From Rhodoluna limnophila (GTDB taxonomy: Bacteria; Actinomycetota; Actinomycetes; Actinomycetales; Microbacteriaceae): a DNA stretch of 64,000 nt. The stretch lies in assembly GCF_005845365.1 (NCBI RefSeq), contig NZ_CP040509.1, positions 434,001 to 498,000 on the forward strand, written 5' to 3'. The notes below the pieces were generated by a model. That model was given only the letters and a program-made list of their open reading frames with translations. It did no database searches and was not told the DNA's origin. The position numbers and the translations under genes are program-made. This document shows, in pieces, positions 38,654 to 45,622 of the stretch. Every line of letters begins with the position of its first letter. Position 1 is the first letter of the stretch.

Positions 38654-39949
38654 ATGGCAACAGCTGAATTTCTTCGCGGTCAGAGTAACGACCCTTCCTT
38701 TCCGCACATCCTGGACGAGCTCAAGTGGCGTGGTCTGGTGGCACTATCCACCGATGAAGACGAGCTGCGCGCGGCCCTCTCAGAAAAGCTGACCTACTAC
38801 TGCGGCTTTGATCCAACCGCCGCGAGTTTGCACCTAGGTAACCTGGTGCAGCTTTTGACCATGCGTCGCCTCCAACTTGCTGGCAACAGCCCCTTGGCGC
38901 TAATCGGAGGTTCGACCGGATTGGTCGGCGACCCAAGGCCAACCGCAGAGAGAACTCTGAACACCAAAGAAACCGTTGCCGAGTGGGTCGAGAAACTCGG
39001 AACTCAGGCATCTCGCTTTCTTGCATTCGAGGGGCCAAATGCGGCTCGGTTGGTAAACAACCTTGACTGGACCGCGCCGCTAAGCGCAATTGATTTTCTG
39101 CGAGATGTTGGCAAGTACTTCCGTGTTGGCAAGATGCTGTCTAAAGATGCCGTTTCGGCCCGCCTAAATTCTGAGCACGGAATCAGCTACACCGAATTCA
39201 GCTACCAGATCCTCCAGGGTTTTGACTTCCTAGAATTATTCCGCCGTTACGACTGTGTGCTTCAGACTGGTGGATCCGATCAGTGGGGAAACCTAACTTC
39301 TGGCACCGACCTGATTCACAAGGTTGAGGGCAAGAGCGCTCACATTTTGGCGACGCCGTTGATTACCAACAGCGATGGCAAGAAATTCGGTAAATCTGAG
39401 GGCAATGCGGTTTGGCTAGATGCTGAACTAACCAGCCCTTATGCGTTCTATCAGTTCTGGCTAAATGTCGAGGACGCAGATGTCATCGACCGCCTGAAGG
39501 TTTTCACATTCCTAACTCGAAACGAGATTGAAGAACTCGAACGCCAAACGCTTGAAGCACCATACCTTCGAGCTGCACAAAAGCGTCTAGCGCTTGAAGT
39601 AACCACTCTGGTCCACTCCGCTGAAGCAGCGCAGGCAGCAATCGATGCCTCAGCTGCTCTTTTCGGTAATGGTGAGCTGGCCAACCTAGAAGCGTCAACC
39701 CTGGCTGCAGCGTTGGGGGAGTTGCCAAACGCAACCGCCACTTCGGGAACTCTGATTACAGATCTGTTAGTTGAAACCGGTTTGGTTGCTTCAAACTCTG
39801 CTGGCCGCCGGGCCATAGCTGAGGGTGGCGTCTACCTAAACAATGAAAAAGTCACTGATGAACAGGCAACCCTGGACACTTTCATCCAAAATCGGTTTGC
39901 AGTTCTCCGCCGAGGCAAAAAAACTTTGGCCGGCGTTTTTAAGGCGTAA
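38654..39949 (+). CDS. tyrS: Tyrosine-tRNA ligase
   Basis: The 431-residue class I synthetase has the HIGH-like HLGN motif (ASLHLGNLVQL), the tyrosine-binding SYQILQGFDFLELF and GSDQWGN, a KMSKS variant KFGKS, and a C-terminal S4 domain (RRAIAEGGVYLNNEKVTDEQ). It lies immediately after argH and is closed by a strong terminator. In M. tuberculosis tyrS likewise precedes the TPR-HAD-tlyA-nadK-recN block; here the rRNA operon separates them. Confidence 0.97.
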   Translation: MATAEFLRGQSNDPSFPHILDELKWRGLVALSTDEDELRAALSEKLTYYCGFDPTAASLHLGNLVQLLTMRRLQLAGNSPLALIGGSTGLVGDPRPTAERTLNTKETVAEWVEKLGTQASRFLAFEGPNAARLVNNLDWTAPLSAIDFLRDVGKYFRVGKMLSKDAVSARLNSEHGISYTEFSYQILQGFDFLELFRRYDCVLQTGGSDQWGNLTSGTDLIHKVEGKSAHILATPLITNSDGKKFGKSEGNAVWLDAELTSPYAFYQFWLNVEDADVIDRLKVFTFLTRNEIEELERQTLEAPYLRAAQKRLALEVTTLVHSAEAAQAAIDASAALFGNGELANLEASTLAAALGELPNATATSGTLITDLLVETGLVASNSAGRRAIAEGGVYLNNEKVTDEQATLDTFIQNRFAVLRRGKKTLAGVFKA

Positions 39950-40163: not shown

Positions 40164-40192
40164 TTGACATTGCCGTTACCTACCCGTAATGT
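40164..40192 (+). promoter_or_regulatory. Strong promoter P1 upstream of rrn
   Basis: TTGACA at 40164-40169 and TAATGT at 40187-40192 are separated by exactly 17 bases. Initiation is expected near 40197-40200. A terminator-like hairpin follows after about 70-90 bases, so this promoter may drive a separate small RNA. Confidence 0.75.
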
Positions 40193-40196
40193 TTTA

Positions 40197-40296
40197 CCTG
40201 TTGCCGAAACGCCGAGGAAGTTCTGATAAGAACCCCGGATCAAGAGCAACAAATCCTAAACCAGGTCAAAAAGCCTCTTGCAGGCTTTTGTTTTTG
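40197..40296 (+). ncRNA. Candidate structured small RNA between the rrn promoters
   Basis: Between promoter P1 and a terminator lies an RNA of about 100 bases that folds well. GTTGC (40200-40204) pairs with GCAAC (40246-40250), extended by ACCT (40196-40199) with AGGT (40263-40266) across a bulge. Inside, CCG/GG/GTTCT (40212-40224, two small bulges) pairs with AGAAC/CC/CGG (40229-40238) under a GATA tetraloop. The terminator stem is at 40269-40289. I do not recognise a known family: no SRP GGAA core, no tmRNA and no C-rich 6C loops. It may instead be an rRNA leader element. Confidence 0.5.
40269..40296 (+). terminator. Terminator-like hairpin between P1 and P2
   Basis: AAAAGCCT at 40269-40276 pairs with AGGCTTTT at 40282-40289 around CTTGC, followed by GTTTTTG. 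It has the form of an intrinsic terminator of modest stem strength. Confidence 0.7.
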
Positions 40297-40342
40297 TGTT
40301 TATGATTATGACTTCCAAGAAAAGTAGTCGGCGTGTCAGATT

Positions 40343-40370: not shown

Positions 40371-40376
40371 GAGAAG

Positions 40377-40614
40377 TTGCCCTGGAGGCAAGTAGAGATA
40401 CAAACTCCCAGGAGCATCCGATCCTTGAGAACTCAACAGCGTGCACAATGTCGATACCAAGAACCTCTTGGTTATCTAGCTTGCTAGATAAGCAGAGAAA
40501 ATATTGGATTAGACAGATTGTCAGACAATCTATTTAGTCAGATCAAGCTAAAGGCCCCATTTTCCGGGGCTGAAGTAAAAATTTGGTGGTGAGCTTGCTC
40601 GTCACCTAAAAAAC
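40377..40614 (+). promoter_or_regulatory. rRNA leader with boxA-like and processing elements
   Basis: TTGAGAACT at 40426-40434 resembles the actinobacterial antitermination box and recurs in the spacer at 42447. CAACAGCGTGCA at 40435-40446 is perfectly complementary to 42302-42313, so the two can form the 16S processing stem. Further hairpins: TTATCTAG/CTAGATAA (40473-40492, 4-base loop), AGATTGTC/GACAATCT (40515-40531) and GCCCC/GGGGC (40554-40570). No gene is present. Confidence 0.7.

Positions 40615-45622
<5,008 letters not shown>

Follow-up and report, generated by a model that had tools for sequence, protein, structure and literature searches.

Upstream of the rRNA operon in the window (by which we mean the whole 64,000-nt stretch of Rhodoluna limnophila DNA that was analysed) lies a short RNA domain that probably forms a conserved, structured 5' leader on the pre-rRNA transcribed from promoter P1, specific to a single bacterial family, the Microbacteriaceae, and with a put-like step as its most likely mode of action. 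That the element acts in cis as a leader, by one mechanism or another, seems very probable. A put-like step on RNA polymerase in particular is a tentative proposal, suggested by analogy, and it is more speculative still that this is an RNA-only or RNA-led put-like element in the rRNA of a bacterial host, forming a family-specific layer on top of boxA antitermination and possibly gated by a ligand through its internal loop. rRNA synthesis is coupled to growth rate, and its control is usually put down to promoters, ppGpp and boxA. The presence of a structured RNA at the start of the rRNA transcript in 62 of 76 sampled genera suggests a further layer of control. The sharp boundaries of the element, its compensatory changes and the existence of operons with and without it in one genome make the proposal directly testable.

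An initial annotation of this DNA had placed a structured RNA, under a promoter of its own, immediately ahead of the rRNA genes, and that much is borne out, the arrangement being conserved and the RNA covarying. Two versions were offered. A leader of the rRNA transcript, the second of them, fits better, as the element sits at the expected P1 start and is tied to rRNA operons. A free RNA of about 100 bases with its own terminator fares poorly, since terminator-like sites occur in only 26 of 146 loci and the stretch concerned overlaps the pattern of a further promoter, P2. A self-contained small RNA it is probably not.

Promoters and fold of the rrn upstream region

The region lies on the forward strand between an ORF of 431 aa (38654..39949), which we take from its sequence to be the tyrosyl-tRNA synthetase gene tyrS, and the 16S rRNA gene (40616..42135; Rfam RF00177). 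Promoter P1 (40164..40192) has the -35 hexamer TTGACA (40164-40169), a 17-nt spacer and the -10 hexamer TAATGT (40187-40192). A candidate middle promoter, P2 (40278..40306), comprises TTGCAG (40278-40283), 17 nt and TATGAT (40301-40306), and P3 (40342..40369) is TTGACA-16-TAAGTT. Next comes an antitermination-like sequence, GATCCTTGAGAACTCAACAG (40420..40439), labelled boxA by analogy. P1 and P3 had both been pointed out initially, the latter as a second promoter after the element; both are present, and P1 is conserved in relatives. We read the three as tandem promoters ahead of boxA. They are called because they are conserved in relatives and not via a simple scan of the window, which asked for at least four of six matches per hexamer and found no promoter at P1, P2 or P3, with 1.2 expected by chance; by our own count the -10 boxes of P1 and P3 and the -35 box of P2 match the consensus at three of six positions each.

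P1 is, on sequence comparison, conserved among relatives. A TAA[ACT][CGT]T box precedes the RNA motif in 123 of 146 unique homologous loci, ending 8 nt before it in 95 loci, 7 nt in 27 and 6 nt in one, and the best -35 in these 123 loci stands at a spacing of 17 in 101, 18 in 21 and 16 in one (ties being broken towards 17). The other 23 loci include two truncated contigs, and the rest have different boxes by eye. The motif thus begins 7 or 8 nt past a -10 in 122 of the 146 loci. In the window GUUGCC starts at 40200, seven bases past the P1 -10, and from this distance the P1 start is placed, provisionally, at or next to the first base of the RNA domain. A leader peptide was considered and rejected, as its in-frame ATG (40189) falls within the -10 and is absent from the P1 RNA.

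The P2 pattern, TT[GT]NNN-16/18-TA[AGT]GAT, is present in 72 loci, where shuffles predict 0.3, and absent from the other 74 of the 146. Its spacer is 17 in 49 loci, 18 in 23 and 16 in none, and the off-spacings 13-15 and 19-21 are found in four and two loci, respectively. For P3, the transcript would be expected to start near GTTGCC (40376-40381); of the 120 loci that show both sequences, 98 have GTTG[CT][CT] 46-52 nt ahead of TTGAGAACTCAA. The expected P3 RNA (40376-40439) likewise opens with GTTGCC, and by eye it could fold back on itself.

Two further sequence features surround the promoters. On the reverse strand, directly upstream of P3, lies GGCGTGTC (40330..40337), the reverse complement of GACACGCC, a box that many relatives carry near -61 of P1; in the window it adjoins P3 rather than P1. 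Eight of the 146 loci have the looser form GGCG[CT]GTC ahead of TTGAC. Among 143 loci, GACACGCCCGGG occurs within the 110 bases preceding the RNA in 84, at about -61 from the RNA start (e.g. L053, L126 and L151), and ACACGCC does so in 101, with 84 of these at -61 or -60. All these loci taken together (~0.57 Mb, both strands) contain 85 occurrences of GACACGCCCGGG. Counted genome-wide, it is present in 1 to 10 copies in 18 of the 19 genomes, compared with 0 to 2 copies of the reversed pattern; the window's genome has none. It looks like a regulator site serving rRNA and some other places. The second feature lies in the P1 spacer and -10 region of the window's genus (40170-40192, 28 rows), where GTTA is nearly invariant and the CG before the -10 invariant; spacer and -10 together form an imperfect inverted repeat, GTTAC-N6-GTAAT.

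Near the inferred 5' end of the P1 transcript are two adjacent stem-loops. The core domain of ~51 nt (40200..40250), found by all three of our covariance models (R1, R2 and R3), is closed in the minimum free energy (MFE) fold by an outer stem of GUUGC (40200-40204) with GCAAC (40246-40250). An internal loop follows, whose 3' side, UCAAG (40240-40244), is nearly invariant; in the window the loop is GAA/CAA, where most relatives have CAA/CAA. It leads to a second stem, which contains a U-G pair as well as a bulge, and to an apical hairpin, variable among relatives, that carries a GAUA loop in the window. The second hairpin (P4/P5; 40252..40307) has the arms AATCC (40252-40256) and GATT (40304-40307) and an inner hairpin at 40269-40289. 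The long-range stem and bulged GATA-loop hairpin drawn in the initial annotation accordingly reappear in the computed structure, and they covary in relatives. The fold of 40197-40305 reaches -33.7 kcal/mol against a shuffle mean of -22.0 (z -3.5; one of 200 shuffles as good).

Across the 146 loci the folding energy of the core is moderately below that of shuffles (mean z -1.47, 72% below -1), and that of the 72-nt stretch past the core is lower (mean z -2.23, 82% below -1). The arms of the second hairpin pair better with their own partners than with swapped ones (10.91 against 9.76, sd 0.31; maximum of 50 swaps 10.42), and a helix score of at least 12 is reached by 52% of own and 36% of swapped arms, which we regard as a modest signal of pairing. 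The loop sequence UCAAG could also pair with CUUGA of boxA, over only five to six bases.

Covariation, spread and linkage to rRNA operons

One line of support for the leader is that changes in the core preserve its pairing. In the MAFFT alignment of the window's genus (28 places, 25 distinct rows, structure drawn by eye) 87.1% of cells pair, against 79.0% in shuffles, which here and below ignore the relatedness of rows, and at most 45.3% in slid controls. None of 500 shuffles did as well in the share of cells paired, in cells changed on both sides or in the covariation score; 97 of them reached its six pairs with two-sided changes, and 347 its 18 pair types. In an unfitted MAFFT alignment of 38 high-GC loci, 97.9% of cells are paired (95.5% in shuffles), five of 16 pairs have two-sided changes (1.3 in shuffles) and the covariation score is 0.122, against 0.073 shuffled and at most 0.055 slid. 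The alignment fitted to model R2, which matched 91 of 96 chosen sources (88 distinct rows; the misses were L044 and L046 and the three diverged sources L241, L246 and L248), gives higher values, inflated by the fitting itself: 97.0% of cells paired against 78.1% in shuffles, two-sided changes at 16 of 16 pairs, and a covariation of 0.448 against 0.133 shuffled and at most 0.056 slid. The stems are thus conserved in relatives with compensatory changes.

RNAalifold recovered less of the structure: eight weak pairs in the first genus alignment, the apical hairpin only in a mixed alignment of 47 rows (three long rows of 50 left out), and in the 38-row high-GC alignment the second stem with a shifted outer stem (C5-G51, C6-G50, C7-G49, C8-G47). 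The outer register G1-C53, U2-A52, C3-G51, C5-G50, C6-G49 was kept because it covaries across the family, a choice that leans on the by-eye structures and the model-fitted alignment.

Base conservation also centres on the core. In 101 GTC-type loci the mean information is 0.74 bits at -44..-1 and 1.87 at +1..+14, the latter raised by the fact that many GTC loci were fetched by a pattern requiring part of the core; in 42 other loci (41 of them GTT) the figures are 0.59 and 1.54. At 20-70 nt past UCAAG they are 0.09 (GTC-type) and 0.30 (others), all in ungapped columns, where one-base shifts depress the promoter figure and indels the downstream figure. Taken with the compensatory changes, the alignments indicate that the core is constrained at the RNA level.

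Within the window's genus a 171-base query hit 28 places in 27 of 67 genomes at E 0.001, and 14 of the 22 most complete genomes had a match. The conserved part begins at the expected P1 start, running GUUGCCCAAAG..., a hairpin of varying sequence, and ...GGCUCAAGWGCAAC. At E 0.001 model R1, which includes the window, detected the element in 67 of the 398 family genomes, the high-GC form GUCACCCCAAAGGUGCGG...CCGGCCUCAAGCGGGAC included. Model R2, whose 38 high-GC loci include none from the window's genus, recovered it from 142 of the 199 family genomes with a completeness of 95% or more, and from 62 of 76 genera. The 57 genomes lacking an R2 match include at that cut the window's own; at a permissive cut R2 does match the window at 40200-40259, with E 0.0052 over the loci searched and 0.023 over its own genome. 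R3 matches it at E 4.8e-11, the window being part of R3. An exact-pattern scan of named genomes gave, among the 80 stretches listed out of at least 120, matches in Leifsonia, Cryobacterium, Agreia, Herbiconiux, Salinibacterium, Mycetocola, Subtercola, Humibacter, Plantibacter and others.

Outside the Microbacteriaceae, sweeps of the order and of the class yielded no credible match, under the stricter filters applied to sweeps of more than 40 genomes, by which weak matches are lost and distant forms may be missed. Across the order, R2 matched 11 and R3 19 of 297 genomes, all in the family; across the class 10 of 246 matched, nine in the family and one, G829, outside it. The G829 match (E 4e-4) lies within an ORF of 470 aa with no 16S gene in 1.5 kb on either side, and is taken as chance because about 0.25 false matches are expected in 246 genomes at a cut of 0.001. 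A contig of 3,052 bases labelled as a Frankiales MAG (L190) carries an ordinary family-form leader with boxA, and we suspect that the contig is misassigned. As to a mobile source, exact patterns were not found in viral contigs, and plasmids and phages gave no blastn match to the leader of one relative.

The initial suggestion that the element is possibly undescribed agrees with Rfam 15, which at the gathering threshold gave only rRNA matches in the window and ten relatives. In the permissive search the best sub-threshold matches (E 0.38, on the other strand, and E 0.53) look unrelated, and the window has no Rfam match to 6S RNA. The open-access literature yielded no description of this leader; most subscription papers lie outside that search, and a prior description is possible. 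'Undescribed' here refers to Rfam and the open-access literature.

The linkage to rRNA operons is close. In 33 genomes chosen for contiguity (32 in one contig, one in two), an R2 match lies 324-490 nt upstream of 47 of 60 16S genes, rates that are biased because 28 of the genomes had known matches and five had none. The 46 best R2 matches in these genomes are all upstream of 16S; the 47th (in G190) reaches only E 0.35. Away from rrn there was no match at E <0.04 in the 33 genomes, the first being partial, at E 0.0435. The element is followed within 450 nt by GAGAACTCAA in 88 of 90 R1 loci (not all distinct); of the two R1 loci lacking such a boxA-like sequence, one is on a contig that stops after 62 nt and the other has none in 729 nt. 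Among the pattern-scan loci 66 of 74 have the boxA-like sequence within 700 nt, and the contigs of the remaining eight end within 270 nt. The element therefore stands where an rRNA operon leader should, upstream of both 16S and boxA on the same strand, and the P1 transcript would presumably read on through P2, P3 and boxA into 16S.

There are exceptions. Thirteen of the 60 operons have no recognised copy, and eight of these were inspected. Six, namely two in G182, two in G077 and one each in G096 and G108, retain CGTAATGT or CGTATTGT, followed at unchanged spacing by GTC, past which the sequence differs; those of G086 and G092 show no clear CGTAATGT or CGTATTGT with GTC. G182 has three rRNA operons (L241, L242 and L243), one with a canonical core and two with a similar promoter and diverged sequence behind it. 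As 13 of 60 operons are without a recognised copy, including two of three in G182, the element appears dispensable in places.

Proposed mode of action of the leader

In the mechanism that we favour, transcription from P1 would begin at or next to the first base of the ~51-nt domain, with the second hairpin following at once. The nascent P1 RNA would fold while leaving RNA polymerase, and the folded leader, alone or with a protein, would act on the polymerase to make P1-initiated elongation resistant to pausing or termination, as with HK022 put RNA. A cis-acting leader is preferred because it accommodates all the constraints: selection at the RNA level, the position at the P1 +1, a copy at most of the operons examined, no other context found, no general stop signal, absence from the RNA of P2 and P3, and loss in some operons. 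Among cis mechanisms, action on RNA polymerase is favoured because the layout resembles putL. The element is not, on the promoter layout, needed for all rRNA, because transcripts from P2 and P3 would lack it yet carry boxA.

The question of a stop signal turns on the GC-rich hairpin with a T-rich tail that the initial annotation took for a terminator. The hairpin and its tail exist in the window, at 40269-40289, and a scan of the region found four terminator-like sites against 2.3 expected; a terminator role for it does not generalize. A terminator-like site within +46..+145 occurs in 26 of 146 loci (5.8 expected from shuffles), 17 of them among the 42 loci of the window's type and nine among the 104 GTC-type loci, and 120 of the 146 have none behind the core. 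The inner hairpin is the tip of a longer helix in the fold of the window and of many relatives. Because the P2 pattern is found in 72 of 146 loci and terminator-like sites in only 26, we read this stretch as a middle promoter overlapping a hairpin, and not as a general terminator. An attenuator in the window's own genus is possible, 17 of 42 loci of its type having such sites.

Attenuation is the first rival, possible though improbable: an aptamer-like core would sense a ligand, and the second hairpin would stop or pass P1 transcription according to demand. The near-invariant loop bases within variable outer stems do resemble an aptamer, the window has a T-rich stretch past the second hairpin, and terminator-like sites exceed expectation and are commonest in the window's sequence type. 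They are nonetheless missing from the 120 loci, the T-rich part pairs in the window's MFE fold inside its own helix and not with the core, and no match below E 0.04 was found at another gene in 33 genomes, whereas metabolite switches often govern several genes.

The element might instead serve rRNA maturation or stability, its 5'-terminal stem shielding the precursor or flagging it to a nuclease or an assembly factor. At the very start of the motif the bases are indeed paired (position 1 in 80 and position 2 in 88 of 88 distinct rows), and the P3 RNA, too, opens with GTTGC and may fold back. We find this doubtful, as signals for pre-16S processing usually lie close to the ends of 16S, whereas the element is 324-490 nt upstream, and a near-invariant internal loop is not obviously required for protection.

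A trans-acting small RNA, released from the P1 transcript by cleavage or termination and binding RNA polymerase as 6S or Ms1 does, for example, is distinctly unlikely. Against it stand the 120 loci with no terminator-like site, the absence of copies away from rrn at E <0.04 in 33 genomes, the lack of an Rfam match and the size of the element, 6S and Ms1 both being longer. The RNA is, for all that, compact and 5'-terminal with its own promoter, and a good copy in one of the three G182 operons is what redundancy in trans would allow. Corynebacterium glutamicum, moreover, has an RNA polymerase-binding RNA other than 6S or Ms1, according to the part of PMC11077062 drawn on here. That only DNA-level promoter and regulator sites are conserved and the fold is incidental is highly improbable: promoter patterns do crowd the region, the second hairpin shares bases with P2 and shuffles ignore relatedness, but the two-sided compensatory changes in the core keep pairing and not sequence, and slid controls score far lower.

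Comparison with known systems

Ms1 and CoRP are actinobacterial RNAs that bind RNA polymerase, as given in the cited part of PMC11077062, and like 6S they resemble the leader in being structured RNAs tied to transcription. They differ from it in being reported there as separate transcripts and not as rrn leaders, and the leader gave no Rfam match to them. Bacillaceae-1 RNA is located near rRNA operons. The portion of PMC2864571 used here gives it (RF01690) as a structured RNA of the Bacillaceae that is not marked as cis-regulatory. It is thus likewise a family-restricted structured RNA, but RF01690 matched neither the window nor any of ten relatives.

In E. coli rrn leaders the promoters lie upstream and boxA before 16S. 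Mycobacterial rrn leaders contain a putative BoxA within the CL2 motif, and rrnB is located downstream of tyrS, both as stated in the cited part of PMC10218544. The likeness to these leaders (CL1/CL2) extends to the upstream promoters, the boxA-type sequence before 16S and the position of rrnB after tyrS, as presumably here. The difference is the core domain of the P1 RNA, which in the window lies upstream of P2, P3 and boxA; the portion of that source consulted describes no such fold.

The closest parallel in layout is putL of phage HK022. This ~70-nt RNA consists of two stem-loops immediately past a promoter, its pairing begins at the third nucleotide, and it includes a -10-like sequence; put RNA binds the beta' zinc-binding domain and suppresses pausing and termination (PMC9378689, in the part drawn on). 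The leader described here is similarly a short RNA of two stem-loops just past a promoter, with an internal -10-like box, a likeness to that account of putL in layout only. The -10-like box here has a -35 at 17-18 nt, so it is better read as a promoter. Furthermore, putL belongs to the early genes of a phage and our element to host rRNA operons, where its effect on polymerase is a proposal. If the put-like reading is true, it would be the host, and not a phage, that sets the elongation or termination of rRNA transcription through a leader RNA which binds the polymerase while emerging from it.
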